64,000 nt of DNA from Opitutales bacterium (GTDB lineage Bacteria > Verrucomicrobiota > Verrucomicrobiia > Opitutales > UBA953). Both the position numbers and the translations under genes were made by a program. The stretch's first letter is position 1. Each line of letters begins with the position of its first letter. The notes beneath the pieces were generated by a model, which made no database searches, was not told the DNA's origin, and saw only the letters and a program-made list of their open reading frames with translations. The DNA lies in NCBI GenBank assembly GCA_017440935.1, contig JAFSAO010000020.1:139955-203954 (forward strand). Direction: 5' to 3'. Below, in pieces: positions 15,612-32,196 of the stretch.

Positions 15612-15672
15612 GAAGATTTAGGAATTAGAAATGAGGAATTCCTAATTTTTCATTTTCCCTTCTTCATTCCCG

Positions 15673-16578
15673 ATGAACGAAATATTTGAAACCAGAGAGC
15701 TTTTCGCGTGCGCCGCAGGCATTTTCCTTGCGGCTGCTGCGGTAGGATTATTTTCGGCGCGGCGTTCCGGCGGGAACGGCGCCGGACGCGGGTGGCGCTT
15801 TGCGGAACTGTTTTTGGCGGCGGCGGCTTGGACGCTTTTGAGTTGTGCGCTCGGGGAACGCGGTTCGCGTTGCGGGCATCTGCCGGTTTCTAATATTTTT
15901 GAAATTTTTCAGGCGCTTGGCTGGTGCGCGGTGTTTTCTATCGTGTTTTTGCGGGCGGTTTGGGATCTGCGCGTTCCCGTGTTTTTCGCGACGGGAACGG
16001 CGGGCGTGCTTTGCGCGCTCGGTTTTGCGAATGTGCGCGGCTGGGACATTTTGCCTGTTTCGGCAGAGGCGTTTACGGGAACGCCGTGGATTGGCGTTCA
16101 CGCGTCGTTTGCCACAATCGGGTATGCGTGTTTTTCTGCGGCGGCGATGGTATGGTGGATTTTCCTTTTGCAAAATTCTGCTCTGCGAAAGCACCGCACG
16201 CATCGTTTTTTTTCAAGACTGCCGGATTTGTCGACATTAGACAGAATCTCGACGCGGCTTTGCTCGGCGGGATTGGTCTTTTTCGGAGTCGGCATCGCCG
16301 TCGGCGTTGCGCTTCTTGTCGGGAATTTTACGCTGAGTTCGACGCTCGCAATTTACAAAACCGGGCTTTCGGTGCTGATTTTCTTCGGGTTTGCAGGTGT
16401 GCGGATTTTGCGCGGACAAAATAAAATTTCCGCTCTGAAATTTGCGCGTGCGGGAACGGCAATTTTTGTCGCCGCGATTATTTTGCTCGGCGGAATGGCT
16501 TGTCTGCGCGATGACGCCGGAGCCTCCGGAGACATTTCTCCTCGTGGGGAAAACGCAGTTTCGGAGGTCGCAAAATGA
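15673..16578 (+). CDS. CcsA/HemX-family integral membrane protein
   Basis: 301 aa with about eight membrane helices. Landmarks are SNIFEIFQALGWC, HASFATIGYACFS and SRLPDLSTLDRIS followed by FFGVGIAVGVALL. The gene overlaps hemA by ATGA (16575-16578), an arrangement seen for hemX-hemA pairs. I do not see the tryptophan-rich WWD segment of true cytochrome c synthetases, so a HemX-like role in regulating or stabilising glutamyl-tRNA reductase fits better than CcsA. Confidence 0.82.
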   Translation: MNEIFETRELFACAAGIFLAAAAVGLFSARRSGGNGAGRGWRFAELFLAAAAWTLLSCALGERGSRCGHLPVSNIFEIFQALGWCAVFSIVFLRAVWDLRVPVFFATGTAGVLCALGFANVRGWDILPVSAEAFTGTPWIGVHASFATIGYACFSAAAMVWWIFLLQNSALRKHRTHRFFSRLPDLSTLDRISTRLCSAGLVFFGVGIAVGVALLVGNFTLSSTLAIYKTGLSVLIFFGFAGVRILRGQNKISALKFARAGTAIFVAAIILLGGMACLRDDAGASGDISPRGENAVSEVAK

Positions 16579-17573
16579 AAATTTTTGCGCTCTCGTGTAA
16601 CTTCCGGACGGCGGAGCTTTCCGTTTTGGAGCGTCTTTCGCTTTCGCGGGAACGCGTCGCGGAGCTTTATGCGGCGCAGACGTTTTCCGGATTTTCGGAG
16701 TGCGTTTTACTTTCAACCTGTAACCGCGTAGAGCTTTATGTTGCGGGAACGCAAACTTCTGCCGAAGCCGTTGCGGGAAAACTCGCCGAGATTTCCGGTG
16801 TTTCTGCCGAAGAAATTTTGACAAATGCCAAAATTTTTTCCGATTCCGACGCCGTGCGGCACCTGTTTGAAGTCGCTTCGGGGCTGGATTCCCGCATGGT
16901 CGGCGAAGCGGAAATTCTCGGACAGGTCAAGCAAGCCTACGAGGCGGCGTTTGCGGCGGGAACGACGGGCGTAGCACTGAATCGCATTTTTCAGAAAAGT
17001 TTTCAGGCGGCGAAGTGGGCGAGGGCGAACACGGGGATTTCTCAGGGACAAATCAGCGTGGGCAATGTCGCCGTGGAACTCGCCGGGCGTGTTTTCGGAG
17101 ATTTGGCGCGTTGCGCCGTGCTCGTTGTCGGGACGGGCGATGCCGGGCGAAAAACGGCGCAGGCGTTCGTTTCGCGTGGAGCGGGAAACGTCTTAGTAGC
17201 AAGCCGCAATTTTGAACGCGCGCGCGCGCTTGCGGCGGAAATCGGCGCGGGCGCCGTCGAGTTGGATTCCGTGGCGGCGCGAGCCGTGCACGCGGATATC
17301 GTTGTCGGATGCGCAAGCGTTTCCGAACCGCTGATTTCCGAAAAAATGTTGAGGGACGTTTTGCGTTCTCGCGGCGACCGCCCGTTGTTTCTCATTGATT
17401 TGGGAATGCCGAGAAATTTCCCCGACGGTGTGGAGTCCGACGATTTATGGGTTTACGGACTGGCGGATTTGGCGGCGATTGCAAATGAAAATCTTTCCGC
17501 GCGGGAACGCGAAGCCGCGCTCTGCCGCGAAGAACTTTCCGCGCGCTCAATTCGCCTTTTTGAAAAACTTTAA
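16575..17573 (+). CDS. hemA: Glutamyl-tRNA reductase
   Basis: 332 aa. The catalytic cysteine motif LLSTCNRVELY includes Cys49. The substrate-recognition motif SRMVGEAEILGQVKQAY and the NADPH-binding segment VVGTGDAGRKTA are present. It makes glutamate-1-semialdehyde, the first step of the C5 tetrapyrrole pathway. It is about 80-90 residues shorter than usual (about 420) and ends right after the nucleotide-binding domain, so the C-terminal dimerisation domain appears to be missing. Confidence 0.92.
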   Translation: MKIFALSCNFRTAELSVLERLSLSRERVAELYAAQTFSGFSECVLLSTCNRVELYVAGTQTSAEAVAGKLAEISGVSAEEILTNAKIFSDSDAVRHLFEVASGLDSRMVGEAEILGQVKQAYEAAFAAGTTGVALNRIFQKSFQAAKWARANTGISQGQISVGNVAVELAGRVFGDLARCAVLVVGTGDAGRKTAQAFVSRGAGNVLVASRNFERARALAAEIGAGAVELDSVAARAVHADIVVGCASVSEPLISEKMLRDVLRSRGDRPLFLIDLGMPRNFPDGVESDDLWVYGLADLAAIANENLSAREREAALCREELSARSIRLFEKL

Positions 17574-17663
17574 GCGCTGACGCTCCGGCAATCCCGATTC
17601 GCTCTTCTCGCGCTCTCACTCCGCTTTCAGCTTGTCGTCAAAGCCTGCGGAGTAAATTAATTC

Positions 17664-17715
17664 TTTTCTCCGCAAATCTGCGGAGAAAATGTGTTTGCCG
17701 CTCCGTAAGGGAGCG
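17664..17715. other. Two hairpins in the hemA-downstream intergenic region
   Basis: TTTTCTCCGCA (17664-17674) pairs perfectly with TGCGGAGAAAA (17679-17689). A shorter stem CGCTCC/GGAGCG follows (17699-17704 and 17710-17715). Neither is followed by a T run; a ten-T run lies at 17759-17768. Possibly hemA transcript ends or a regulatory leader. No other content is seen in 17574-17861. Confidence 0.4.
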
Positions 17716-17861
17716 TAATTGTGCGTTGTGTCTCATTTTTAATCTCTTGAATTGTAGCTTTTTTTTTTGGTTAAACTTCCCACCATTGAAAAGATTTTTT
17801 CGTGTCAGATTTCATCTGTCGGAGAATCTTCGCTTCTAACATTTTCACAATCTCAACCCCT

Positions 17862-18236
17862 ATGTATCGTAGTCTGTTCAAAGCGACGATAGCCGTTTCG
17901 ATTTTCTCTCTCTGCGGGAACGTTTTCGCCTGTGGCGGAGTTGCATGTTATCCGCAAGGCTTAGGAGTAATCTCTTACGAGCATTTTGAAAAATTGCTTG
18001 CCGAATCCGTAACCTGCAAATACTGCGGACGCTCCGCTTCCTCGGCAAAACAGCTCTCCGCCTTAGGTGTTTGCCCGAACTCTCCCTCGAAGAAACACGT
18101 CGCGCAACGCTGTCGCAAGACCCGCCAAATCTACGTTTGCCGCTACTGCGGCTTCCGCGCGAACAGCATCCGCACACTCACCGCGAGCCCTTGCCGTGCC
18201 AACCCCAACGGCTCCCGCCACGTCGCCGCAGATTAA
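17862..18236 (+). CDS. Small exported protein with two CxxCG...C...H repeats
   Basis: 124 aa from the ATG at 17862 (MYRSLFKATIAV). A GTG 60 bp upstream is possible but would bury the signal peptide. After a signal sequence ending near VFACGG come two repeats, CKYCGRSASSAKQLSALGVC..H and CRYCGFRANSIRTLTASPC..H. Each has four potential metal ligands. Zinc binding outside the cytoplasm is inferred. It lies 36 bp upstream of the operon's first large gene and may be its first cistron. Confidence 0.72.
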   Translation: MYRSLFKATIAVSIFSLCGNVFACGGVACYPQGLGVISYEHFEKLLAESVTCKYCGRSASSAKQLSALGVCPNSPSKKHVAQRCRKTRQIYVCRYCGFRANSIRTLTASPCRANPNGSRHVAAD

Positions 18237-18272
18237 TTTCTTTTCTCGAAAAACCTCAAACCAAAGGAAAGC

Positions 18273-19559
18273 ATGAACAAAAGCATTATAGCAGGAATTG
18301 TCGGTTGCATTGCCGGCGCCTCGATTATCGGAATTGCGGTGTGGAGCTACGGAAATTGGGGAACGGCAACTATGGGGACAACGGGACCGAAACCGGATGA
18401 TGGAATTGGCAAAACGATTAAGCCGGAAAACCGCCGCAAGTCGGTTGAGCCGCTCGGTGTTCAGGAAGTCGAACGTTCTTCGATGCCGCAAGAAGCGCTT
18501 GAACGCTTGCCGGAAACGCAAAGCACCCGAACCAATAAGGGACGATTCATTATTTCCGGGCAAGGCGAAGATTCGGATTGGGGCTTCAGCAAGCAAGCCA
18601 ACTTTCTGTACACGGCGGACGTTGTTGCCGACTCGAAAATTTTGGAAAAGAAGTCGCTCCCGCGCGGCGGAATCAAGGTCGTTGAACTGCGTACGTTTCG
18701 CGACGTTCGTGACTCCATGATTGTTTCGGAAGCAGACGTAAAACTTAGCTTGAAGACGGTCGACATTAAGCTGGTTTCAAAAGCGATTGACCTTGCCTGT
18801 GCGGCTTGGAGCACGTTTACAGGCGATGTTTCCGTTCCTGGAGGTGTTAAAGTCACAAAAGACTTGGCGGAACGAAAACTCAAAGAGGTGGACGGTAAAG
18901 GAATTCGCCATCTTTTGGGCGTTGCCGGCCTCGATATCGGGGATAAGTGGGAGAAAAAGATAAACGAACTTGCCTCGCGATATGCGACTAAGGCGCTCGG
19001 AAACATCCGCAGGATTTCCGGAAAGTCTTATTTGGTGACGTATTATCAGAGCAAAGACGCGGAACCGATGTATGCGACATTTAAGAACGAAGACGGCTCG
19101 GAAATTACGGACGAAGAGGAGCAACTCATCCTCCGCCGGGTAAATGCGTTCATGGACTATTGTCTTGTTCCCGACAAAAAATGCCGTCCGGGAGATACAT
19201 GGAAAGTCCATTCCGAAGACCTTCAGGAAGTTTTCGACCCGTTTGTCGAGGGAGATTACATCGGAATGCTGACCTTGAAGCGGGAGGAAAATAACGATGA
19301 AGGCAACTGGGTGATTTCCGTTGGCGAGGCGGAAGTTAAAATCATCTCCTCTAACGGAAAAACGACGGGAACCCTGCAAGTCAAATCCGGGTGTGCGGAA
19401 GTGAATCCCAAAACCATTATGCTCGAATCGATGTCCGTAAACGGGGACGCAAACATGATGAAAAAGAGCAAGCATCACTGGCTGTTTACGGCGCACCTCG
19501 GCGGCGCTTGCGAGTTTGAAGGACAATTGTTTGTCGATTATGACAACAACGAGAGATAG
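18273..19559 (+). CDS. Membrane-anchored hypothetical protein, first large gene of the FHA/GTPase operon
   Basis: 428 aa. One N-terminal membrane helix (about residues 5-24) is followed by a Lys/Pro linker and a large soluble domain predicted to face the periplasm. The domain has mixed alpha/beta character and no motif I recognise. An AAGGAAAG lies 5 nt before the ATG. Only 2 bp separate it from the FHA-ABC gene, so they share a transcript. No GGGAACG motif occurs after 18364 in this gene, unlike most neighbouring regions. Confidence 0.8.
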   Translation: MNKSIIAGIVGCIAGASIIGIAVWSYGNWGTATMGTTGPKPDDGIGKTIKPENRRKSVEPLGVQEVERSSMPQEALERLPETQSTRTNKGRFIISGQGEDSDWGFSKQANFLYTADVVADSKILEKKSLPRGGIKVVELRTFRDVRDSMIVSEADVKLSLKTVDIKLVSKAIDLACAAWSTFTGDVSVPGGVKVTKDLAERKLKEVDGKGIRHLLGVAGLDIGDKWEKKINELASRYATKALGNIRRISGKSYLVTYYQSKDAEPMYATFKNEDGSEITDEEEQLILRRVNAFMDYCLVPDKKCRPGDTWKVHSEDLQEVFDPFVEGDYIGMLTLKREENNDEGNWVISVGEAEVKIISSNGKTTGTLQVKSGCAEVNPKTIMLESMSVNGDANMMKKSKHHWLFTAHLGGACEFEGQLFVDYDNNER

Positions 19560-19561
19560 CG

Positions 19562-21922
19562 ATGTCGTTTGTTTGCCCCCATTGCCTTTCCGGATTACGC
19601 AACACGGCGGACACCTGTCCGCAGTGCGGGCGGGTTTTCAATGCTTCGGATTGGATTCCGGAAGCCTATTCTTCGAAATACCTGCGTTCCTGGATTTTGT
19701 TTGAACTTCCGGGCGGAGGCTACCGGAAGGTGGCGCGGGGCATCGATACGTTTTTTGTCGGAAGCAATCCGGGCGTTTCGGGGATTGAAATAAAAAATCC
19801 GGCTTGTTCGGAAAAACATATACGTATTTCCCGCAACGGAAACATATGGGAAATTTACGGAAATGAGGGCGAGTTTTTTGTGGACGGACGCAAGTATGTG
19901 CGCGGAGCAAACGTTTCGATTGAGTCCGGCTCTAAAATAAATATCGGCACTGCCGTAATCACGGTAAAAATAAGCTATGCGCTTCCGAAGTTTCAAGATG
20001 ACGCGACGGAGAAAACGATTTCGAGTCCGGTCGTTTTGTCCGGCGGAGATGTTTCGCTCGGAAGCGCGTATGACAGCAGTCTCGTTGTCGCCGGCGCAGA
20101 TTCGCTTCACGCCAAGATTTACAGGTGTCGGAAAGACGGAAAATGGTATTTGGTTAATTGCTCGCGGCGCGGAACTTTTTTGAACGGATCGCCGGTCCAC
20201 AACGCGGAATTAAACAAAGGCGACAGGATTCGTGTCGCGGAAACGCGTTTCGTTTTTACAAATTCGGCGCTACACCCTTTTGTTGCTTCGGGTTTGCAAA
20301 TCAGGGTTGAGAACGTGAGCGTCAGACGCAACGGGCGGGAGATTTTGCGCGATGTCAGTATGCTTGCCGCTACCGGCGAATTCGTCGGGGTGTTGGGTCC
20401 GAGCGGATGCGGGAAGAGTTCTTTAATTCAGCGCCTTGTCGGACTGGACTGTTTTGATTCCGGTCTCGTGAAAGTGAACGGACGCAATTTTTCGGAAGTG
20501 AAATCCGAATTTCTGAGCCGAACCTCCTATCTGCCGCAACAGATTGCCGTTCACGCGGATTTGACGGTTCGTGAGGAAATGACGATTTTTTGCGAGCTCC
20601 ACGGGGAGGATCTTTCGCAAATTGGCGAAACCTTAGAGCTTGTCGGTTTGAGGGATGAAACCCAAAAGCGCATCGGCACTCTGAGCGGCGGGCAACAACG
20701 GCGCCTGGGAATCGCGCTCGAGCTTTTACGGAATCCGCAACTTCTGGTCTTGGACGAACCGACTTCCGGCTTGGATCCGAAGACGGAAACGGACGTAATG
20801 ACGTATCTAAGGCGCGTTGCGTCGCAGGGGAAAACGGTGATTTGTTCGACCCATATTTTGGAGAACTTAAATCTCTTTGATAAAATTCTGGTTTTAGCTG
20901 ACGGGCGTTCCGTATTTTTCGATTCTCCGAAAAATTTGTTCCATACCTTCGGAATCAGGCGTAGTTCCGAACTTTACGAAAAACTCGGGAACAGTAACTC
21001 GATTGAATATTTCGCTAAAAAAGTTTCGTCGGCGAAAATTCCCGCCGTTCCCGGAAATTTTGCGCGGTTAGAAGAGAAAGAGACTTTTTGGATAAATGAG
21101 ACTTGTGGCTATTTGAAGCGGATGCTTTGCGAGTTTTTGGCTTTTCGCCATACGCCGAATAAATTCCTCGGTTTTCTGCAATCGACGTTTTTCATCCAGC
21201 TTATTGTTCAGCCGATACTGGTTGCCTTGGCGATTAAGGTCTCCTGCGCCTATAAAATGACGACCGACAGCGACTACAAAGACGTTCTGTTCTTCTGCGC
21301 GATTTCCGTTTTTTGGCTCGGGCTAAATAATACAATTCGGGAATTGGTGCGGGAACGCGTTCCGTGGCGTTGCCTTGAGCGCATGGCGCAAGTCAGCACA
21401 ACGGGATATTTGCTTTCAAAACTTCTTTGGAACAGCTTTGTTTGCGTTTTGCAAATTGCGATTTTCGCTCTTTGCATTTACGGGATTGCAAGCGTTCCGC
21501 TCAAAAGCGGGGGAAGTCATGTCGTTAGTTTTACGGCGGGAACGTTTTTCATTTTGTCGGCAACCGGATTTCTGGGTGCGTTAATCGGCTTGGCGATTTC
21601 CGCATTTTTCAAGCGGGAAAATGCCGCAGTAAGCCTTTTGCCGATTGTGCTTATTCCCGTGCTCTTCTTTTCACAACCGATTGTTCGTGACGATGGAAAC
21701 TCTCCGAAACTGGCGAGCGCGATTGTCGAAATCATGCCGTGCCACGCCCCGCAAGTGTTGATGGACAAAATTGACGATGCCGAACAACCCGATTCGGGAA
21801 AGCAAGTCGTTCCCGTCGACTGGTTCCGCGCTGCGCGTGTTCCCGGCTTATACGCGCTGTTCGCTCTCGGCGTAATGATTTATTTCCAAAACAAGCGGGA
21901 ACACGAATGGAACGGAAGATAA
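19562..21922 (+). CDS. Zinc-ribbon, double-FHA, ABC exporter (ATPase-permease fusion)
   Basis: 786 aa. Residues 1-24 form a zinc ribbon (CPHC..CPQCG). Two FHA-like domains follow (about 40-140 and 150-240; the second has SLHAKIYR and NCSRRGTFLNGS). Then comes an ABC ATPase with Walker A GPSGCGKSS, signature LSGGQQRR and Walker B LLVLDEPTSGLD, and a C-terminal ABC-2 permease with about six helices. The layout resembles mycobacterial FHA-ABC exporters controlled by Ser/Thr kinases. The adjacent pseudokinase gene fits a phosphothreonine-type or scaffold link. Cargo is unknown. Confidence 0.9.
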   Translation: MSFVCPHCLSGLRNTADTCPQCGRVFNASDWIPEAYSSKYLRSWILFELPGGGYRKVARGIDTFFVGSNPGVSGIEIKNPACSEKHIRISRNGNIWEIYGNEGEFFVDGRKYVRGANVSIESGSKINIGTAVITVKISYALPKFQDDATEKTISSPVVLSGGDVSLGSAYDSSLVVAGADSLHAKIYRCRKDGKWYLVNCSRRGTFLNGSPVHNAELNKGDRIRVAETRFVFTNSALHPFVASGLQIRVENVSVRRNGREILRDVSMLAATGEFVGVLGPSGCGKSSLIQRLVGLDCFDSGLVKVNGRNFSEVKSEFLSRTSYLPQQIAVHADLTVREEMTIFCELHGEDLSQIGETLELVGLRDETQKRIGTLSGGQQRRLGIALELLRNPQLLVLDEPTSGLDPKTETDVMTYLRRVASQGKTVICSTHILENLNLFDKILVLADGRSVFFDSPKNLFHTFGIRRSSELYEKLGNSNSIEYFAKKVSSAKIPAVPGNFARLEEKETFWINETCGYLKRMLCEFLAFRHTPNKFLGFLQSTFFIQLIVQPILVALAIKVSCAYKMTTDSDYKDVLFFCAISVFWLGLNNTIRELVRERVPWRCLERMAQVSTTGYLLSKLLWNSFVCVLQIAIFALCIYGIASVPLKSGGSHVVSFTAGTFFILSATGFLGALIGLAISAFFKRENAAVSLLPIVLIPVLFFSQPIVRDDGNSPKLASAIVEIMPCHAPQVLMDKIDDAEQPDSGKQVVPVDWFRAARVPGLYALFALGVMIYFQNKREHEWNGR

Positions 21923-21945
21923 TTTAACAACTAAACAAAGATAAC

Positions 21946-24900
21946 ATGAAACAACTAAACAAAGCGACCTTACACGCATGCGAAGCGTTTTCCGACTATT
22001 CGCACAAAGCGGAATCCGACGGCAAATTTTACCTTCTGAAATTTGCTTCCGTCGAAAATGCGGAAGTTGCGGAAGGCATTGTTTCCAAACTACGCGAAAA
22101 ACTTTCCTCCGAATTTGAAATTTACCGGGAAGGCGAAAAAGTTGTCGTCGCAAGAGAATTTATTGAAGGAACGTTGCCGGAGCCCAAAATTGATTCACCG
22201 AAGGAAGCACTCGAGCAAATTATTGAAATCGCGGAAGCACTCGGCGGAAGGCTTCACGGTAATTTGAAGCCGGAAAATATTCTCCGGAACGAAGACGGAA
22301 ATTGGATTATTGTCGATTTCGGCATTCGCGCGTTTCACGAACTTGTTCGAAAGAACTCGGGAACGGGATTACAGTATCTGGCTCCAGAACAAATTTGCGG
22401 CGAGTACACCGAAAGAAGCGATGTTTACGCGCTTGGAATGTTTCTCGGAAAACAGCTCTGTGGGAAGACTCCGTTCGACGGGATGCCCGAAAATTTGTTG
22501 CTTCAGGAAAAACAGCAGGGAACTCCGGATTGGAGCATAATTGCCGATATTCGGGATGAACTGAAAAAGCTTGTAGAAAAAGCAACGGAAAACGATGCCA
22601 ATTCCCGTCACCAAAGCATCACAGAGTTTTTGGAGGCTTGCCGTCGCACGGAAAAACTTTTAAGCGGAGGAAACGCAGACGTGCCGCAGCACACGCCTTC
22701 GCCGCTTCCCGGAGAGGACGAAGACAACGTTCCGCTGAATCCCAATAAGCGCTTCGTACTCGTTGGGCATACCGGTGCGGGAAAAACCGTTCTCGCCGCC
22801 GGACTTTATGCGACATTCAGCCGAAACAAAAATCTCTCCGTTGAAGCTGCCGACGAACCGACCAAGCAGTTGGCAAATAATTTTAAAAGCATTCTCGAAA
22901 CGGGAACATGGCCTGCCGCAACAACCGGTGCCGCGCAAAAATTGTGCTTCCGCATTGCGCACAACTGCGACGCCGCCGAATTGGATTTTGACGAATATAT
23001 GGGAGAACGTGTTAGTGACGTCGAATCCTATATTCGCGACATTTTAAAGGAGCCGAACGGCGTTCTGCTTTTGATGAATCCGGGCGGACTTCAGTTTCGG
23101 CTCAAAGCAGGTGCCGACGACACGCCGCAGAAACTCGCCATCCGGCGAAACAAGCTGTTGAGCGACTTGAAGTCCATCATCGACTATCTTTTCAAGCTTA
23201 AAACCCGCCCGGCAGTTGCTCTCGTCATTACGGCGTCGGATCGACTGAAAACCGACCTAAAAGATTTCGCGCCCGAGTTCAATCGCTATGTCGAGGAAAT
23301 CGAAACCGCGTTAGATACGCGCGATAAGAATTGGTGGAAACGCTTCGAGGTTTCTGTTTGCGGCGAGCTTGCAGACCAAACGCACCCGAAACTTAATCCG
23401 CAAGGCATTGACGAACCTTTCCTTTGGCTGACGGAGCGCTACAACGCAGTCGTAAGAAAAAAACGCATTACGAAATTCCTCGCGCAAACGGCGTGCGGCT
23501 TGAGCGCGTTGGCGTTGTCGGCTGCCGTGTGGTGGGGCGTTGATTGGTATCGCGCGTCCGTTCCCGAAAGGGAAATGCGCGCTTGTATCGCCGAATTTTC
23601 CGGAAAAAACAAAATAGGCGAGTTGAGCGCGTGTGCGCAAAAACTTGTCGCAATTCGTCGCAGCTATTGCACCGAAAATCACATTACGGAAAATCACGGA
23701 AAGCGCGTTGCGGCTTGCGTAAAAACCTGTTCGCCGTTTTTCCTTTATCCGGATCGAAAGCAGGAATTTGAGAAAAACATCAAAAATCTCGAGCTTGCAA
23801 TTGATGCTACTCGCGCAAACTACTACGAAGCCAAAGTGAATTTGGCGTTAGAAAAAGCAACGGAAGAAAACTGCAAAGTCACGGAAGACGTTGCGGGATG
23901 GATTCCGTTGCAAGCTTCCGAAATCGGAAAACGATTCGACGCACTAAAAACCGTCTGCAAAAATGAAATTCCCGTCGCGCGGGAACGCTACGTTTACAAC
24001 GAGATTTTAGGGAAGTTAAACAAAATTATCGAAAAGCCGGAAAACGGTCTGATGCATGAACTTGTGGAAAAGGTCGAAGTTTTTCAATCTACGGATTCCG
24101 TTCTGACACAAGAAGAACACAAATCACACCTTGATAATTTGGCAAAAGCACTTTCGGGTGCTAGAGATAGCGTTTTCGAATATAATGCGCAACGTTTGTA
24201 TTCTGAGTTAAACGGCCTACATTTAAAGAGAATTGACGAGTTGGTTCCGTTTGTGAAGCGGTGGAACGTATTTAAAGCACAAAAGAATGTTGGCGTTCGA
24301 AAAGACCTTGTTGATTCTTACTTGCCCAAAATCTCAGGAATGATGAGAGGAAAGGTGTTGGGATTATTGGAGCGTCTTCTTGATGCCCACACTCGCGTGC
24401 AGATGGAAAGCGAAAAGCAATTCGAGGCTAAATTTATCGATGAATGGAATGAAAAGATTGTTCCCATTGCGGATGATTTTAACGAGGAATGCAGGAATTT
24501 GGCTGAGAAGACGCTTGAGCAATTGGCGAAAGATTGGCGTACAAAAATGAAGCAACAAATTGATGACTTTATTGCATCTGTGAAAGGCCTCAGTGCAACG
24601 GAGCAACTTCAACGATTGAAGCAATATTATGCTGAGCGAGATTTCGATCCGCAAAACCCGTATGTCGAAAACGCGGAAATTGCGATTTTTGATTACGTTG
24701 ACGATTCGATCGATGAAATTTTTAAAGAGTGGAAGCATTCTAAAGATGAGTATATCCGCTTGAAAGATCTTTGTGTCGCAATTAGGGCTACACCGAGTAG
24801 ATTTATTCAGGAGAAAAAAGTGTATCAGTTTGCGAACAAGTATGTGTCGTGGTTGGATGGTTATCACCGTACGGTTACCATTCGAATAAACCAATTAAGG

Positions 24901-25263
24901 ACTGTTAAGGTGGGAGCAATATATATTGATTCTATCTATTTTAAAGGTAGAAGCGTGTCTTTGGGGTATAATGGATCGTATCCTAAAGAAATTTCATTTT
25001 CATTGGATAAACCATGGGAGGTTGTGGATTTTACATGGCATGTGAAAGATAGAGGCGCTTTCTATGACGGAGGATTTGGCGGAGTGGAGGCTTCTAATGT
25101 TTTTTCAATACCTTGGTTTGGGCGACAAAAGCAAGGAGAAGTTAGATGTGTGTGGGATGAATCCGCTGAAGTTACTGGGTGGGATTTTCAGTCAACGGTT
25201 ACAGGAAAAACTATAGTGGATATCGTAAACGAAGTTTGGCCGAGTGGCGAAAACGGGAAATAA
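21946..25263 (+). CDS. Pseudokinase-GTPase membrane protein with long coiled-coil tail
   Basis: 1105 aa. Residues 1-235 form a protein-kinase-like domain: a lysine in YLLKF, HGNLKPEN at 104-111, DFG at 124-126, LAPEQ and DVYALG. The catalytic HRD aspartate is Asn106 and no glycine loop is evident, so catalysis is doubtful. A P-loop GTPase-like domain follows with GHTGAGKT near 274 and VITASD as a possible NKxD equivalent. One or two helices lie near 511-535. The remaining about 560 residues look alpha-helical or coiled-coil, presumably extracytoplasmic. The GTPase part recalls 'double-GTPase'/TRAFAC conflict-system proteins. Its last 1.2 kb are AT-richer. Confidence 0.85.
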   Translation: MKQLNKATLHACEAFSDYSHKAESDGKFYLLKFASVENAEVAEGIVSKLREKLSSEFEIYREGEKVVVAREFIEGTLPEPKIDSPKEALEQIIEIAEALGGRLHGNLKPENILRNEDGNWIIVDFGIRAFHELVRKNSGTGLQYLAPEQICGEYTERSDVYALGMFLGKQLCGKTPFDGMPENLLLQEKQQGTPDWSIIADIRDELKKLVEKATENDANSRHQSITEFLEACRRTEKLLSGGNADVPQHTPSPLPGEDEDNVPLNPNKRFVLVGHTGAGKTVLAAGLYATFSRNKNLSVEAADEPTKQLANNFKSILETGTWPAATTGAAQKLCFRIAHNCDAAELDFDEYMGERVSDVESYIRDILKEPNGVLLLMNPGGLQFRLKAGADDTPQKLAIRRNKLLSDLKSIIDYLFKLKTRPAVALVITASDRLKTDLKDFAPEFNRYVEEIETALDTRDKNWWKRFEVSVCGELADQTHPKLNPQGIDEPFLWLTERYNAVVRKKRITKFLAQTACGLSALALSAAVWWGVDWYRASVPEREMRACIAEFSGKNKIGELSACAQKLVAIRRSYCTENHITENHGKRVAACVKTCSPFFLYPDRKQEFEKNIKNLELAIDATRANYYEAKVNLALEKATEENCKVTEDVAGWIPLQASEIGKRFDALKTVCKNEIPVARERYVYNEILGKLNKIIEKPENGLMHELVEKVEVFQSTDSVLTQEEHKSHLDNLAKALSGARDSVFEYNAQRLYSELNGLHLKRIDELVPFVKRWNVFKAQKNVGVRKDLVDSYLPKISGMMRGKVLGLLERLLDAHTRVQMESEKQFEAKFIDEWNEKIVPIADDFNEECRNLAEKTLEQLAKDWRTKMKQQIDDFIASVKGLSATEQLQRLKQYYAERDFDPQNPYVENAEIAIFDYVDDSIDEIFKEWKHSKDEYIRLKDLCVAIRATPSRFIQEKKVYQFANKYVSWLDGYHRTVTIRINQLRTVKVGAIYIDSIYFKGRSVSLGYNGSYPKEISFSLDKPWEVVDFTWHVKDRGAFYDGGFGGVEASNVFSIPWFGRQKQGEVRCVWDESAEVTGWDFQSTVTGKTIVDIVNEVWPSGENGK

Positions 25264-25269
25264 ATTCAC

Positions 25270-26220
25270 ATGAAACTGAATCAGATTTTTTACGGGAACG
25301 AAGGTTTCGGGTACAAAGTGCTCGGAGCCTCGGACATCTCGCTTTCCGAGAAAGCGGCAAAAATCTGCCGCGCCGTCGGAACGCCGGACGGAATTTCGGA
25401 TACGGCTCCGTTTTTGCTTAGCGTTCCCGACGGAAACGAATTGTTTATGGTGTGCTGTTCTCCCGGAGACGCTGACGGCGTTGGGCGGAAAACACTGTTT
25501 TTCCACATTCTTGTGGGGAACAGGCAAGAAGCGACACAAGCCGGAATTAACGCGTTTTCGCTTTTGGAGGCTAAGCGTTTTTCCGACTCGCGTCCGGGCG
25601 GAAATATTGCGCCGGTTTCCGTTTTAAAGTTGTTCGGGGAATCCGGCGTTCCCGCGTGGGACGGATCTGCGCTTCGCATTCCGAGGAAATGTCCGGCGAA
25701 TTCGGAAATCCGCAAGCTCGTGGGCTCTCGTGTGAACGATGTGGCGTGGGCAACGTTTTCGTTTTGCAATTTGGACGCGCCGTTTGCGCTTTACGCTGTT
25801 TCGGAGCACGTTCCGTTGCAGGCGGAAAAACCGATGCCTCCGCCGCAGGCGGGCGAAACGGGCGTAGCTCCTTCTCCCTCTAAGAAAAAGAGATCGGGAG
25901 TTTTGAAAACAGCCGCTTGGTTCGGACTTTTTACGGCTTCCGTTTTGCTGAATGTGGCTTTGCTTACGAAAGAATCACAGATGACTCATAAAGAAACTAC
26001 CGAAGGAGTTGACCCTGGCGTGAACGAAGGGAATCCGGGCACTAACGCCTTTGCCGAGGGTATGCAAAAAGGCTACCAAAAAGCGCTTGCCGATCTGCGG
26101 GAAAAGTTTCCGGAGGAAATGAGGTTGTCGAAGTTACCGCCCTTTGCTCCCAAGCGAGTAGTTGCTTATGTGAATTTCGTTAACGACAATATCTTAAACG
26201 GTCCGAATCAAGGGGAATAA
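25270..26220 (+). CDS. GTPase-associated-protein-like membrane protein
   Basis: 316 aa. The N-terminal domain starts MKLNQIFYGNEGFGYKVLGASDISLSE.. and has FLLSVPDGNELFMVCC and RKTLFFHILVG. The Q.(F/Y)YG..G(Y)..L..S opening and the later R...FxHxLL-type strand resemble GAP1-N ('GTPase-associated protein 1') domains, which co-occur with the double-GTPases. A single helix lies at about residues 216-238, followed by a short outside tail. It is 6 bp downstream of the GTPase gene. The family call is tentative. Confidence 0.75.
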   Translation: MKLNQIFYGNEGFGYKVLGASDISLSEKAAKICRAVGTPDGISDTAPFLLSVPDGNELFMVCCSPGDADGVGRKTLFFHILVGNRQEATQAGINAFSLLEAKRFSDSRPGGNIAPVSVLKLFGESGVPAWDGSALRIPRKCPANSEIRKLVGSRVNDVAWATFSFCNLDAPFALYAVSEHVPLQAEKPMPPPQAGETGVAPSPSKKKRSGVLKTAAWFGLFTASVLLNVALLTKESQMTHKETTEGVDPGVNEGNPGTNAFAEGMQKGYQKALADLREKFPEEMRLSKLPPFAPKRVVAYVNFVNDNILNGPNQGE

Positions 26221-26222
26221 AG

Positions 26223-26699
26223 ATGAAAAAATACTTTTGTTGTGTAGGGGTGTTATTGTTTGCGGGAACGTTATTGTGTGCGAACTCTCTAGAAAATTCA
26301 TTCCCCTTTGAACTGGGTCAGCTGAAAGAAGAAGTAATCAAATGGAAAAGAAAATTCGATTCTTCTCAAAAGCGTTGTGACGAATTGGAGCGAGAAAACC
26401 GGAGTCTAAAAAAACGATTTGAGAATCTTAAAGACGACATCGCTTCCGTTGAAAAGGCGTTGGATTTAACCGTGCGCGACTCGGAAGAACCGGATTATCG
26501 CTTGCAGGATATATGCAGTCACGTGGAGAATTACTATGTTCCCACTTCGACGAAGAAGTTGAAGCCATTGAGCGAGGAAGATTGGGAGCTAATCAATTTT
26601 TCCCTCGAAGAAAGAGAAGAGACGCGGGAACGCATTCTCGCCTATGAAAAATTTGTAAAAAAGTATAGCGGCAAAAAAATCATTATTTTGGAGAATTGA
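26223..26699 (+). CDS. Small exported coiled-coil protein, paralogue A
   Basis: 158 aa. A signal peptide (residues 1-20) is followed by a coiled coil (about 30-85) and a C-terminal block EEDWELINFSLEEREETRER..YEKFVKKY..KKIIIL. The next gene ends in nearly the same block. It is 2 bp from the previous gene. Probably a periplasmic accessory subunit. Function unknown. Confidence 0.8.
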   Translation: MKKYFCCVGVLLFAGTLLCANSLENSFPFELGQLKEEVIKWKRKFDSSQKRCDELERENRSLKKRFENLKDDIASVEKALDLTVRDSEEPDYRLQDICSHVENYYVPTSTKKLKPLSEEDWELINFSLEEREETRERILAYEKFVKKYSGKKIIILEN

Positions 26700-26702
26700 G
26701 CG

Positions 26703-27128
26703 ATGAAATTATTGAATCTGATTATTTGTATAGCAACGCTTTCGGGCGTAGTTCTTTTCTCCGCTTGTTGCGGAGAACGAATTGTCTATAAGGAAATAAA
26801 GCCGGATTTGAGCTACGAAGAAACCCAGCTTAGACGGCTTGCAACGAAGTTGGGAGCCTCCTCAACGAGCGTCGAAAGAATGGAGCTGTCGGAATTGGTC
26901 TCGGAAGTGCGTTCGCGAATTGAGAACAATGCACGTTCTGTGGCTCGAACGGAATCCCTGAGTCGCGATGACTGGGAGTTGATAAATTTCTCTCTCGAAG
27001 AACGGGAGGACACTATCCGTAAAATCGAAAAATACGAGAAGCTCGTAAAAAGTCTTCAAGGCAAGCGCATCATTATTCTTCCGAAAGAAGAGGAGCGCGA
27101 AGTGCCGCGTCGTTCCCGTTCCCGCTAA
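26703..27128 (+). CDS. Small putative lipoprotein, paralogue B
   Basis: 141 aa. The signal sequence ends near FSACCGER, so Cys lipidation is plausible. The C-terminal block RDDWELINFSLEEREDTIRK..YEKLVKS..GKRIIILP matches the C-terminus of the preceding protein, giving a tandem paralogous pair. The tail is basic (RRSRSR). It is 3 bp downstream of paralogue A. No known family recognised. Confidence 0.8.
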   Translation: MKLLNLIICIATLSGVVLFSACCGERIVYKEIKPDLSYEETQLRRLATKLGASSTSVERMELSELVSEVRSRIENNARSVARTESLSRDDWELINFSLEEREDTIRKIEKYEKLVKSLQGKRIIILPKEEEREVPRRSRSR

Positions 27129-27132
27129 GTTT

Positions 27133-27762
27133 ATGGAAACGACAAACGAAAGAGGTGGTTTCCGCTACGCGTCCGGATTGGTTTTATTCTGGGCGGCGCT
27201 TGCACTTTACGTCGGCGGTTTGATTGCGCCGCTGGCGACCATCTCAAAGCGTTTTACTTTGGAGATGGCGCTCGAGACGATGAAGGAACACAAGGAAGCG
27301 GTTGCGGGAAAAGTTTCCGAAGAGCTTTTCGTGACAATGATTGATTTTGCCGACGAGGCACTGAACGCATTGGAAGTGGATCCCGTGCTCGTTGACGAGA
27401 AAAACACCTATTCGGTGCTTTCGGGTGCGTGGGAATTGTTCGAAGCGAACGAAATTTTTCTTGCCGTCGTTGTCGTGCTGTTTTCTGTGGCGTTCCCGTG
27501 CGCGAAATTAGTTTCGTTGTTCATTCTTTGTCACGGCGGTGCGGAGTGTTCCCGTGAGCTTCATTTTAAAGCTCATGCATTTCTCGGAAAATGGTCGATG
27601 CTTGACGTTTTCGTCATCGCGCTTCTGGTGGTTTCGACGAAGCTCGGGGACATGGTGAACGTCAAGATTCACAGCGGAGTCTATTTCTTTGCCGCTTCCG
27701 TTATTCTGACGATGATTCTCACGCAGATTTTACACAAGTCGTTTCCGATTCCCTCGAAGTGA
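27133..27762 (+). CDS. PqiA-like integral membrane protein
   Basis: 209 aa with four predicted helices and the PqiA-type signature FLGKWSMLDVFVIALLVVSTKLGD. PqiA proteins work with MCE-domain partners in envelope lipid transport, but no MCE gene is seen here. It is the last tightly packed gene of the operon (4-bp gap), which suggests that the FHA/GTPase module has an envelope function. Confidence 0.85.
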   Translation: METTNERGGFRYASGLVLFWAALALYVGGLIAPLATISKRFTLEMALETMKEHKEAVAGKVSEELFVTMIDFADEALNALEVDPVLVDEKNTYSVLSGAWELFEANEIFLAVVVVLFSVAFPCAKLVSLFILCHGGAECSRELHFKAHAFLGKWSMLDVFVIALLVVSTKLGDMVNVKIHSGVYFFAASVILTMILTQILHKSFPIPSK

Positions 27763-27799
27763 TATTTAACAACCTTACAAATTCCAGCTATTACCTCTC

Positions 27800-30241
27800 A
27801 TGAAAAACATTACTTCTATTCTATCTTTAATTGCCGTGTTTTCAGATATGATTCTCTCTAAAATTTCACAAATGTTTTGGTGCGGCGCGTTGGCACTTGC
27901 GGTTTGCGTTCCCGCAGTTCGGGCGCAGGAAAACTCGGGGACGGCGGAAAGCGTTCCCGCGTCGGAAACGGCTTCTTCGGAGCCAGAGGCGGGTATTGAT
28001 TTAGACGCGGTGCTGAAGGCCGCAGAAGCCGGCGACGCGGAGGCGCAATTCCGACTTTATCTCCATTACGCTCTTTCGGGAACAGGAGACGAGGAAAAAT
28101 CCTTAAAATGGCTCATTCGTGCGGCGGAAAGCGAACATGCAGACGCGCAAAATATTCTCGCCGCACGGTATATGCGGGAACACCGCATTGAAGATGCGTT
28201 GAAGTGGTGGGAAAAAGCAGCGGGAAACGGTCATCCGGTGGCTCAGTTTTGGTTCGGTCGCTATCTTGTTACGGGTATTGAGGGTTGTCTGGAAGCAGAT
28301 GTCGCCAGGGCTTTAACTTTGATTTCAGATTCGGCGGTGTCCGGTTACGAATCTGCTCAGATCTGGCTCGGTAACGCGTATTGGAGCGGTGAATTTGTCG
28401 AACAAAACCATGCGCTTGCCGTGACGTGGTTTCGCTCCGCTGCCGAGCGCGGGAACGCCGAAGCGCAGTTTTGTCTTGCGCAGGCTTATTATACTGGACT
28501 TGGAGTGGACAAGAGTGCCGTCGAATACTCTGCGTGGCTTCGCAAAGCCGCCGAAAACGGTCATGCGGAAGCGCAGGGCTATTTGGCTTATGATTATTTC
28601 ATCGGCAATATCGTCGAACAAAGCTACGAAAAGGCGGCGGAATGGTGGGCAAAGTCGGCGGAGCAGGGCGAACCGCGTGCGCAACACAGTTTGGCTCAAT
28701 GCTATCGAGACGGCACCGGCGTTCCCGCAGATAAGGCGAAAGCCGTGGAATGGTTCAGAAAAGCCGCCGAGCAAAACCACGCGGGAGCGCAAATGGCACT
28801 TGCCGTTGCTTATCGTGACGGAGACGGCGTTCCCGCAGACATGACGGAAGGCTTGCGGTGGATGATTCGTGCCCATGTTCACGGCTATGAAAATGCGCGC
28901 GAGGAGTTTTGGGCACCGTTGCTAAACGACATGGAAGCGGCGTTTAAAAATTTGGAACGCGCCGCAGAATCCGGCGAAACGGCCGCACAGAAAGCCTTGG
29001 GCGAAATTTACTGTCTCGGCAGGGGCGTTCCCGCAGACGAAGAAAAAGCGATTGCGTGGTATCGCCGTGCGGCAGAACAGGGGGATGCAGAGGCGCAGAA
29101 AGAGCTTGCGATAATCTATTGGAATCGCGGAGATGTCGAAGATGCGCTCCCCTGGGCTCAAAAAGCGGCGGCTCAAGGCGACGGCGAGGGAGAATGCATC
29201 TTGGGTTTATACTACTTGAAAAAGGGGGACATACTCGGCATTGAGTATTTGAAAAAATCGGCGGAGCAGGGCGAGCCGTTCGCGCAGTGGCGCTTGGGCG
29301 TGTGTTACTACAACGGGGAGTGCGTTCCCGTTGACTCTGAAGAAGCCGTGCGCTGGTTTAGCCTTGCGGCAGAAAGCGGTTTTCCGGATGCATTTTTCAG
29401 TCTCGGAAGTGTCTACGAAGCGGGAAAAGGGGTTGAAAAAGATTTAGCACGCGCGGCAGAGATGTATGAAGAGGCGGCTTATCGCGGGAACGCCGAAGCG
29501 CAGTTTCGGCTGGGGCGGTGTTACGCGGACGGAATCGGCGTGGCTCCGGATCCGGAATGCTCGGCAAAATGGTATGAGAAATCTGCCGAAGGCGGGCATT
29601 TGCGAGGACAATTGCAAGCCGGGTTTATCTGCCTTAGCGGCGACGTCGGTCCCGTTCGCACGGAAGACGGGCTGGAATGGATTGAACGTTCCGCCAAGGG
29701 CGGTTGGTGGATGGCGCAAGGTGCGTTGTTTGATATTTATTATTTCGGACGCTACGGGGTCGAGATTGATAAAGAAAAAGGCATTTATTGGTTGCGTCAA
29801 CTTGCCGAAACGGAGCCGGACGATAATGATTCCGAAAAACTTCCTGCGGAACGCGCCGGCGTGTATCGCTCGATGTATGGAACGTTTTGGGAAGACGAAG
29901 GCAAACCGGAAGAAGCCGCAAAATGGTTCGAAAAATCGGCGGCACTCGGGCATCCGTCCGGACAATATGACTTGGGGCGTCTTTATTTCCACGGGAACGG
30001 CGTTCCCGAAGATAAGGCGAAAGCGGTAGAGCTTTTCCGCTTGGCGGCGGAGCAGGGTTACGACCGAGCCCAATACAATCTCGGCATCTGCTATTTTAGG
30101 GGAATCGGCGTGCCTAAAAGCATAGACGAAGCTGTGCGTTGGATGCAAAAAGCGGCGGAACAAGGCGACGAAGAGGCTCAACAGTTTTTGAAAGACTTCG
30201 AGGCAGATTCAGCAAAAGGGAAGGAAAACGATAAAGAATGA
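27800..30241 (+). CDS. Large exported Sel1-repeat (SLR) protein
   Basis: 813 aa. An N-terminal signal peptide or anchor (residues 10-45) is followed by about 18-20 Sel1-like helical repeats of the form A.(A/E)G...AQ..LG..Y..G.GVP.D...A..W(F/Y)..AA. SLR proteins act as protein-protein scaffolds, often in envelope signalling. It is 37 bp after the PqiA-like gene and may be the eighth cistron or a separately transcribed partner. Confidence 0.9.
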   Translation: MKNITSILSLIAVFSDMILSKISQMFWCGALALAVCVPAVRAQENSGTAESVPASETASSEPEAGIDLDAVLKAAEAGDAEAQFRLYLHYALSGTGDEEKSLKWLIRAAESEHADAQNILAARYMREHRIEDALKWWEKAAGNGHPVAQFWFGRYLVTGIEGCLEADVARALTLISDSAVSGYESAQIWLGNAYWSGEFVEQNHALAVTWFRSAAERGNAEAQFCLAQAYYTGLGVDKSAVEYSAWLRKAAENGHAEAQGYLAYDYFIGNIVEQSYEKAAEWWAKSAEQGEPRAQHSLAQCYRDGTGVPADKAKAVEWFRKAAEQNHAGAQMALAVAYRDGDGVPADMTEGLRWMIRAHVHGYENAREEFWAPLLNDMEAAFKNLERAAESGETAAQKALGEIYCLGRGVPADEEKAIAWYRRAAEQGDAEAQKELAIIYWNRGDVEDALPWAQKAAAQGDGEGECILGLYYLKKGDILGIEYLKKSAEQGEPFAQWRLGVCYYNGECVPVDSEEAVRWFSLAAESGFPDAFFSLGSVYEAGKGVEKDLARAAEMYEEAAYRGNAEAQFRLGRCYADGIGVAPDPECSAKWYEKSAEGGHLRGQLQAGFICLSGDVGPVRTEDGLEWIERSAKGGWWMAQGALFDIYYFGRYGVEIDKEKGIYWLRQLAETEPDDNDSEKLPAERAGVYRSMYGTFWEDEGKPEEAAKWFEKSAALGHPSGQYDLGRLYFHGNGVPEDKAKAVELFRLAAEQGYDRAQYNLGICYFRGIGVPKSIDEAVRWMQKAAEQGDEEAQQFLKDFEADSAKGKENDKE

Positions 30242-30296
30242 GGAGAGAAAGAAATTAGGGTTTTTCTTTATTCCTAAGAATCTCAGCGTTAAACGC

Positions 30297-30415
30297 CTCT
30301 CGCGGAGCCACAGAGAGACCTTCATTCCCACAAAAACTCTGTGTTTATCTGTGTTAAAAAACTTGGCGGCGCTGCGAGAGTTTAAGAACTTCGCGGCTCT
30401 GTGTCTCCGTGAGAG
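30297..30415. repeat. Imperfect inverted repeat, CTCTGTG(G/T)CTCCG(C/T)GAGAG arms
   Basis: The complement of 30297-30315 matches 30397-30415 at 17 of 19 positions. The roughly 80-bp interval also contains CTCTGTGTTTATCTGTG. It looks like a dispersed intergenic repeat. No gene is seen in 30242-30519. Confidence 0.55.
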
Positions 30416-30519
30416 CTTTTGTGTTCCCGCAAGGATAAACATCCCAGCGTTCCCGTCGGCTTCCCGGTGTTGCGTTTCGCGGGTTTTTGAGAGATAAATG
30501 AGTTTTCGTTTTTCAATTC

Positions 30520-32196
30520 ATGGCAGAGGGAAAAATCATTTACACGATGTCGCGGCTCTCGAAGGGATTCGAGAAAAAGCCGATTCTGAAGGACATTTCG
30601 CTCTCGTATTTTTACGGCGCAAAAATCGGCGTGCTCGGGCTGAACGGCTCGGGCAAATCCACGCTTTTGCGCATCATGGCGGGCGTGGACAAGCAATACG
30701 AAGGCGATATTTCCTGCGTTCCCGGCTACACGATCGGCTACCTTGAGCAGGAACCGCAGCTCGATCCCGCGAAAACCGTGCGCGAATGCGTCGAAGAGGG
30801 CGTTGCGGAAACGCGCAAACTCCTCGACGATTACGACGAAACGTTTATTCAACTCGGCGAAACCGACGATCCCGCCGAGCAGGAAAAAATTCTCAATCGC
30901 CAAGGCGAAATTCAGGAAAAACTCGACTCCACGGGCGCGTGGGATCTCGATTCCCGCATCGAAATGGCGATGGACGCGCTCCGTTGTCCGGACGAAAATG
31001 CGCTCGCCGCGAACCTTTCCGGCGGGGAAAAACGCCGCGTCGCGCTCTGCCGCCTGCTCCTGAAAGAGCCGGATATTCTGCTTCTCGACGAACCGACCAA
31101 TCACCTTGATGCAGAAACCATCGACTGGCTCGAACGCCACCTGCACCAATACAAGGGCACGGTGATCGCTATCACGCACGACCGCTACTTCCTCGACAAT
31201 GTCGCCGGCTGGATTCTCGAAATCGACCGCGGCTACGGCATTCCGTGGAAGGGCAATTATTCTTCTTGGCTCGAACAAAAGGAAAAACGCCTCGCCGCCG
31301 AGGAAAAAGTAGCCTCCGCGCGCCGGAAAACCATGGAGCGGGAACGCCAGTGGGCGGCGACTTCGCCGAGCGGGCGTCTCGCGAAAAACAAAGCGCGCCT
31401 CCGCGCCTACGAAGCCATGCTTGCGCAGGACGAACGCGAGCAGGAAAAAACGATGGAAATTTTCATTCCCGCCGGGCCGCGCCTCGGCGAAAAGGTGCTC
31501 GTTGCGAAAAATCTCACGAAAGGCTTCGGCGACAGGCTTTTGCTCGACAACGTGAATTTCACGCTTCCCGCCGGCGGCATCGTCGGAATTATCGGTCCGA
31601 ACGGCGCCGGAAAAACCACGCTTTTTAAAATGATTACGGGCGCGGAAAAACCGGACGCGGGAACGCTTACGCTCGGCGAAACCGTCAAGCTCGCCTACGT
31701 TGACCAATCGCGAGATGCGCTTGACAATTCCAAGCAGATCTGGGAAGTGATTTCCGACGGGAACGAAATCGTCGAGCTCGGCAAATTGCGCGTTCCCGCG
31801 CGGCAATACGCGGCGCGTTTCGGCTTTACGGGCGCGGAACAGCAAAAGCTCGTCGGCTCGCTTTCCGGCGGCGAGCGCAACCGCGTTCACCTTGCTCGCA
31901 TGCTCAAAAGCGGCGCGAACGTTTTGCTTTTGGACGAACCGACGAACGACCTCGACGTGAACACGATTCGCGCGCTCGAAGACGCGCTCAACGCGTTCGC
32001 GGGTTGCGCCGTTGTCATCACGCACGACCGCTGGTTCCTCGACCGCGTTGCGACGCACATTCTCGCGTTTGAAGGCGATTCGCAGATTTACTGGCACGAA
32101 GGCAACTATTCGTCCTACGAAGCGGAACTGCGCAAACGCCTCGGGCACGATATCGACCACCCGCGCCGCATCAAATACCGCCAGTTTTCACGCTGA
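30520..32196 (+). CDS. ettA: ABC-F translational throttle protein EttA
   Basis: 558 aa. Two ABC domains carry Walker A GLNGSGKST and GPNGAGKTT, signatures LSGGEKRR and LSGGERNR, and Walker B DEPTNHLD and DEPTNDLD. An interdomain linker and the arm segment GAWDLDSRIEMAMDAL are typical of EttA. It binds the ribosomal E site and gates early elongation with ATP/ADP. The length matches the family (about 555). Confidence 0.95.
   Translation: MAEGKIIYTMSRLSKGFEKKPILKDISLSYFYGAKIGVLGLNGSGKSTLLRIMAGVDKQYEGDISCVPGYTIGYLEQEPQLDPAKTVRECVEEGVAETRKLLDDYDETFIQLGETDDPAEQEKILNRQGEIQEKLDSTGAWDLDSRIEMAMDALRCPDENALAANLSGGEKRRVALCRLLLKEPDILLLDEPTNHLDAETIDWLERHLHQYKGTVIAITHDRYFLDNVAGWILEIDRGYGIPWKGNYSSWLEQKEKRLAAEEKVASARRKTMERERQWAATSPSGRLAKNKARLRAYEAMLAQDEREQEKTMEIFIPAGPRLGEKVLVAKNLTKGFGDRLLLDNVNFTLPAGGIVGIIGPNGAGKTTLFKMITGAEKPDAGTLTLGETVKLAYVDQSRDALDNSKQIWEVISDGNEIVELGKLRVPARQYAARFGFTGAEQQKLVGSLSGGERNRVHLARMLKSGANVLLLDEPTNDLDVNTIRALEDALNAFAGCAVVITHDRWFLDRVATHILAFEGDSQIYWHEGNYSSYEAELRKRLGHDIDHPRRIKYRQFSR

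Follow-up and report, generated by a model that had tools for sequence, protein, structure and literature searches.

The question raised by this locus is whether a compact set of genes, in which an ABC exporter stands beside a GTPase and its likely partner, belongs to a known kind of system, and what such a set might do. The genes lie in a window of 64,000 nucleotides from the genome of an Opitutales bacterium (the window being the whole stretch of DNA that was analyzed), where a first-pass annotation had described a seven-gene envelope operon. We found that this operon is an exporter-coupled version of a GTPase-centred kind of system, and that this version was previously unreported.

We verified seven open reading frames, A through G, all on the forward strand, as are the domains and single sites given below. 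The intergenic gaps are 2, 23, 6, 2, 3, and 4 bp, and all six agree with the first-pass annotation. A (18273..19559) has one transmembrane segment near its start and a probable periplasmic domain. B (19562..21922) combines a weak zinc ribbon, two FHA domains, an ABC ATPase, and an ABC-2 permease, and thus resembles exporters of lipids or peptides. C (21946..25263) consists of a kinase-fold region, a small-GTPase-fold domain, a transmembrane segment, and a predicted periplasmic helical region with a C-terminal beta part. D (25270..26220) has a longin/GAP1-N2-like N-terminal domain, a transmembrane segment, and a helical tail that is probably periplasmic. The small exported protein E (26223..26699) is a paralogue of F (26703..27128), which is lipoprotein-like and a member of the conserved core; alignment of a common C-terminal segment confirmed their proposed relationship. 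G (27133..27762) is a PqiA-like membrane protein (Pfam PqiA, 2.8e-25). An additional gene, Z (17802..18236, likely start 17862), encodes an exported Cys-rich protein with two CxxCG..C..P..H units. Its reading frame ends 36 bp upstream of A, and the transcription unit probably starts at Z and not at A, so that the proposed seven-gene unit is probably one gene short. A terminator-like 11-bp hairpin (17664..17689) follows hemA at the left edge of the cassette described below; the total of such hairpin sites in the region was at chance level, as was the outcome of a promoter scan.

The block is rare. Seven further genomes from the phylum share the order A-B-C-D-F, complete or to the contig end, with gaps that are small or overlapping. 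Including the window, there are eight independent GTPase-type loci (the window, L067, L068, L069, L070, L066, L082, and L083; the contig of L082 ends within D), and their eight host genomes are from distantly related, gut-type bacteria. The co-occurrence across Verrucomicrobiota that had been suggested as a test was thereby found. Using A as a marker over 84,980 species, we recovered four loci, in Victivallis sp., Lentisphaeria bacterium UBA1724, bacterium S32M_St_metabat_107, and RUG14492, and further loci were added from class-wide searches. Full-length C as a query gave mostly kinase matches, and its real homologues were reached only by a phylum-wide search. There was no full-length relative of C in congeners or elsewhere in the order, and its GTPase-periplasmic part had no relative among 272 further genomes from that order. 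A pattern scan of genome contigs with C found nothing, whereas alignment with A did find loci. Viral contigs scanned with D and A contained no relatives, and plasmids scanned with C gave only partial matches, from about residue 100 to 318, none of which extended over the greater part of the protein.

The A, B, C, and D trees agree in splitting the loci into the same two groups, the window with Victivallis and Lentisphaeria against the other five, with supports of 92/91, 96/96, 97/95, and 96/94, respectively; long branches limit any finer reading of these trees. Because the four trees separate the same groups, the core travels as a unit.

C had been described as a membrane-spanning protein with a kinase-like and a GTPase domain. 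The kinase part is recognizable (Pfam Pkinase, 2.9e-15) and degenerate: in its C-lobe (22249..22614) HGNLKPEN replaces HRDxKPxN, and the Gly loop is absent. Only two of the eight C proteins have a kinase domain at all. The GTPase domain (22747..23349) carries a P-loop (GHTGAGKT) and the motifs DEYMGE and TASD, and the P-loop, Y-x-GE, and T-A-x-D motifs are invariant among the C homologues (G274, GKT279-281, GE353-354, D432). It matches DO-GTPase1 at 5e-5, with 23.1 bits against a Pfam cut-off of 27; among five members, four match DO-GTPase2 (best 2.3e-5) and three match DO-GTPase1. The structural model of C is poor as a whole (pLDDT 53.5), with about 50 to 84 in the core of the G-domain. At this moderate model quality the G-domain is modelled with a small-GTPase fold of the Galpha/Arl/Rag type, since Foldseek returned Galpha, Arl, RagA/C, and Gtr1, each with a probability of 1.0. 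The proposed GTPase domain was therefore borne out at the level of its fold. The membrane-spanning nature of the protein is less evident in the window member, in which the transmembrane segment is weak by hydropathy; its position (23467..23535) is taken from homologues, most of which have a clear segment, located after the G-domain in four of the six tested. C is split across reading frames in two metagenome bins (L068, 3120-5710; L066, 8703-11681), perhaps by frameshift, assembly error, or decay.

D had been called GAP1-like. Its N-terminal domain (residues 1-120; 25270..25629), mostly at pLDDT 80-94, models as a longin domain, again with moderate model quality. The best Foldseek matches were NPRL2 of GATOR1 (probability 1.00), an archaeal longin, Lst4, FLCN/DENN, and TagF (9t0n, probability 0.77), with E-values of only 0.008 to 0.04; PAS domains, which are similar in shape, ranked lower. 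The match of D to GAP1-N2 is 0.062 in the window and 4.9e-5 in L082, where 23.8 bits falls just below the Pfam cut-off of 24. Neither GAP1-M nor GAP1-C matched any of five D proteins in Pfam at E ≤ 1. The GAP1-like assignment has some support from the N-terminal fold and none from the other GAP1 domains. We had checked for the two outcomes named as speaking against the first-pass annotation, namely no GTPase or GAP1-like fold, or homologues that never co-occur, and neither arose. Hydropathy indicates one transmembrane segment in D, around residues 215-260 and in most members located after the switch domain, and signal-like starts in E and F. Together with the segments of A and C, these features suggest a periplasmic location for parts of C, D, and A. 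E and F are lipoprotein-like coiled coils, and most F proteins have a lipobox-like Cys. Homologues of F lie 3' of D in seven of the eight loci, that is, wherever the contig extends far enough, and L083 also has a second F-like gene.

In B, two FHA stretches at the N-terminal side precede the ABC-2 transporter (ABC_tran, 6.5e-27; ABC2_membrane_3, 1.2e-15), as proposed, although the zinc ribbon is weak (0.065). Its homologues are 32-45% identical. In both window FHA domains, GS takes the place of the GR seen in binding domains: the phosphothreonine-binding Arg is absent from the first (19757..19948; GSN for GR) and replaced in the second (20096..20236; GSA), and the Arg of the second is missing from all eight GTPase-type B proteins. 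The Victivallis locus keeps a canonical first FHA domain and the kinase motif HGD, so the loss of phospho-signaling residues is not uniform. A belongs to no Pfam family and is 42, 38, and 28% identical to homologues; sequence searches of solved structures with A and D gave nothing.

A and B also occur elsewhere. Two sister operons of a kinase type (L084, 6038-12792; L085, 5933-11804) have A, the FHA-ABC protein, and a separate intact Ser/Thr kinase, without C and D. The HRD motif is intact in both, their FHA domains have GR and SRRH or SRQH, and the L085 kinase is fused to Sel1 repeats. It appears that the A and B exporter core has been joined to a kinase in some operons and to a GTPase-longin pair in others.

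The genes that follow the constant core are variable. G had been identified correctly as PqiA-like, but PqiA lies outside the conserved core, and none was found at the other seven loci, as far as their contigs reach. In its place are genes for an a/b-hydrolase, HtrA-PDZ, and M48 (L068/L064), patatin and M48 (L070), a patatin lipoprotein (L066), and FGE (L069), most of which begin with signal-like sequences. Because lipid- and protein-cutting envelope enzymes recur after the core, we place the output of the system in the envelope.

The operon lies in an accessory cassette of 10.2 kb (about 17681..27838), for which the congener G005 has no counterpart in its syntenic slot. In blastn, 15667-17680 (86%) and 27839-30259 (83%) of the window align with the G005 contig (L103), and the middle does not. 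The GC content is 45-51% over most of the cassette, compared to 53-55% in the flanks. The G005 slot instead contains a DUF2971 gene (PADLOC PDC-S31, 1.8e-14) and an FGE gene. A second congener, G003, retains Z (98.9% nucleotide identity), Sel1 and EttA (96%), and the PqiA-like gene at its 3' end. In G003, however, Z and Sel1 enclose a different GTPase cassette (L109, 4332-10905), which encodes a pair of dynamin-like proteins (LeoBC, 1.4e-17), a DO-GTPase1 protein (7.9e-8, above the cut-off) with a transmembrane segment at its C terminus, a 344-aa membrane protein of no family, and a zinc-ribbon PqiA. Part of G (27578-27762) falls within a block of L109 that is 95.8% identical, and phmmer gave 1.6e-53 for the PqiA-like protein. 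The G003 DNA to the left of Z is unlike that of the window, and the G003 hemA is on another contig. Because G003 shares the Z/PqiA bracket and differs in content, at least two GTPase cassettes, A-F among them, have been exchanged at this slot; slot exchange was seen among three congeners only. A slot that carries a different GTPase block in a close relative suggests a swappable device for envelope surveillance or defence.

There were several other observations around the slot. The Sel1 gene was considered as a member of the cassette and rejected, as it belongs to the syntenic backbone in G005 and G007. Z occurs in G006 outside the slot, without cassette context, and a Z-like exported Cys-rich protein lies upstream of A in L069 (9192-9611), with repeated CxxC..C..(S/N)P..H units identified by eye; these Cys-rich proteins upstream of A may serve as a zinc-finger sensor or may anchor recombination at the slot. 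The left flank of the window (15673-17573) is most like G005, whereas the right flank (27800-32196, with EttA and Sel1) is 90-96% identical to G003 and G007, whose hemA is only about 75% identical to that of the window. These mixed affinities suggest recombination or rearrangement around the slot. Inspection by eye of a contig from the congener G001 (L110, 2-4558) revealed RHS-repeat core pieces, of the polymorphic-toxin type, and small genes upstream of EttA.

Our main reading, to which we assign a probability of about one half, is that the operon, spread by horizontal exchange, encodes a GTPase switch that spans the membrane, gates an ABC-2 exporter, and serves in accessory envelope surveillance or conflict and not in housekeeping. 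The anatomy of the operon is well supported, whereas its function is our interpretation. The cytosolic small-GTPase-fold domain of C would be linked through one membrane helix to the long periplasmic helical region, and D would have its longin/GAP1-N2-like domain in the cytosol and its tail in the periplasm. Such domains act on the cytosolic side as GTPase regulators or platforms, and C and D may interact to form the switch. C, D, A, and the lipoprotein-like F and E would read a signal in the periplasm that changes the nucleotide state of C, and this change would be relayed to B by protein docking through the FHA domains and, in two members, also through the kinase-fold adaptor, both of which seem to have lost their phospho-chemistry. 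B, in whichever direction it transports, and the product of the variable last gene (PqiA in the window; elsewhere patatin, lipase-like, M48, HtrA, or FGE) would then act on the envelope. There is a precedent in Bacillus DynA, a membrane GTPase for membrane surveillance and phage resistance (PMC8844932). A more specific version, which we offer tentatively, is that this is a new class of envelope machine in which a transmembrane GTPase and its longin partner directly gate the exporter and have taken over from an ancestral phospho-switch of the kinase-FHA type, the whole machine being exchanged as one unit for dynamin-type cassettes at a defence slot.

The main alternative is that this is an operon for envelope lipid transport or maintenance, in which the ABC-2 exporter and the PqiA-like protein move or trim phospholipids, the GTPase pair does nothing beyond regulating them, and there is no role in conflict. 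We consider this possible and rather doubtful. The PqiA family membership of G, the presence of PqiA in the sister cassette, the exported patatin and lipase-like genes at other loci, and two MCE-domain genes elsewhere in the genome are all in keeping with it. Yet the operon itself has no MCE gene, the other loci examined lack PqiA over the reach of their contigs, and the very patchy distribution and the slot exchange speak against it. An exporter paired with the small exported E and F and an exported Cys-rich protein could also be one for a bacteriocin or antimicrobial, with self-protection. This seems quite improbable: E and F are lipoprotein-like coiled coils kept as part of the core, a search for a leader peptide or modification enzyme found none, and bacteriocin operons are not known to include a GTPase-longin pair.

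Two further alternatives start from known assemblies. In the two-gene PknF-Rv1747 operon of M. tuberculosis (PMC3908365), as here, an FHA-FHA-ABC-2 half transporter is coupled to a kinase-fold protein, and our operon could likewise be an exporter switched on by phosphothreonine binding to FHA under the control of a Ser/Thr kinase. The shared operon of kinase fold and FHA-ABC and the intact kinases and FHA domains of L084 and L085 are consistent with this. However, the window operon has lost the catalytic residues (HGN for HRD, no Gly loop) and the binding Arg of both FHA domains, the kinase domain is missing from six of the eight C proteins, and the operon adds a GTPase-longin pair and extra periplasmic partners; we therefore regard this reading as unlikely. 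Derivation from the membrane complex of type VI secretion with its TagF/Fha/PpkA controls is less likely still. The part list is analogous to that of the TssM/TagF/Fha/PpkA set (a GTPase-TM-periplasmic protein, FHA, a kinase fold, and a lipoprotein), TagF is known to repress the T6SS through Fha (PMC5995506), and D matched TagF in the fold search. In contrast, the operon has an exporter in place of a contractile apparatus, with no gene for sheath, Hcp, or VgrG; sequence homology was not found, TssM had no match in profile or fold searches, and Pfam scans of the operon detected no TssM, TssL, or sheath family. A search for TagF_N in 195 genomes of the phylum gave no match, but its control was also silent, so this is not evidence of absence.

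Among the closest known systems are the sets of GTPase, GAP1, kinase, and FHA components to which the operon had been related. Like the DO-GTPase/GAP1-N2 systems (Kaur et al. 2020, PMC7159879), the operon has a membrane-near GTPase and a downstream GAP1-N2-like protein, with transmembrane segments on both, together with degenerate or active kinases and variable effectors, which in those systems include trypsin and FGE domains. Unlike them, its core contains an ABC-2 exporter and A, it has one GTPase and not two, and its Pfam scores are under the cut-offs. The suggested kinship is supported by the GTPase fold and longin-type D and weakened by the lack of GAP1-M, GAP1-C, and an FNIII component; no FNIII was found in the operon proteins or the flanking genes scanned. 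Because the searches for them detected neither GAP1-M/C nor FNIII, we did not classify the operon as a GAP1-N2 system. The view that the exporter version was not among the known sets held up: the paper that defined GAP1 (PMC7159879) mentions neither ABC transporters nor longins, "ABC transporter" giving zero matches. PADLOC had no specific model that matched any core protein over its length, and gave generic kinase or ATPase partial matches only. In combining a small-GTPase fold with a longin partner, as judged by fold search only, the operon also resembles Rag with the GATOR1/FLCN longin regulators of eukaryotes and their archaeal relatives. Its proteins differ in being bacterial and single membrane-spanning proteins, and for them a GAP role is at most predicted. 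LeoABC-type dynamin cassettes can occupy the same slot, as in G003 beside a DO-GTPase and a PqiA-like gene, whereas the window operon has no dynamin.

The operon ties the GTPase/GAP1 conflict systems, so far predictions only, to a concrete output device, the ABC exporter. It further points to the GAP1-N2-type module as a regulator of GTPases built on a longin domain, whose fold is more familiar from the Rag/GATOR control of eukaryotes. The locus and its relatives provide a natural experiment as well, with kinase-FHA and GTPase-longin versions of the A and B exporter pair and with two GTPase cassettes in one slot of sister species. In a genome of the same family there are two adjacent GTPase genes with DO-GTPase-like motifs (L020, 320-3210), the second of which ends in an FGE-type-like domain.
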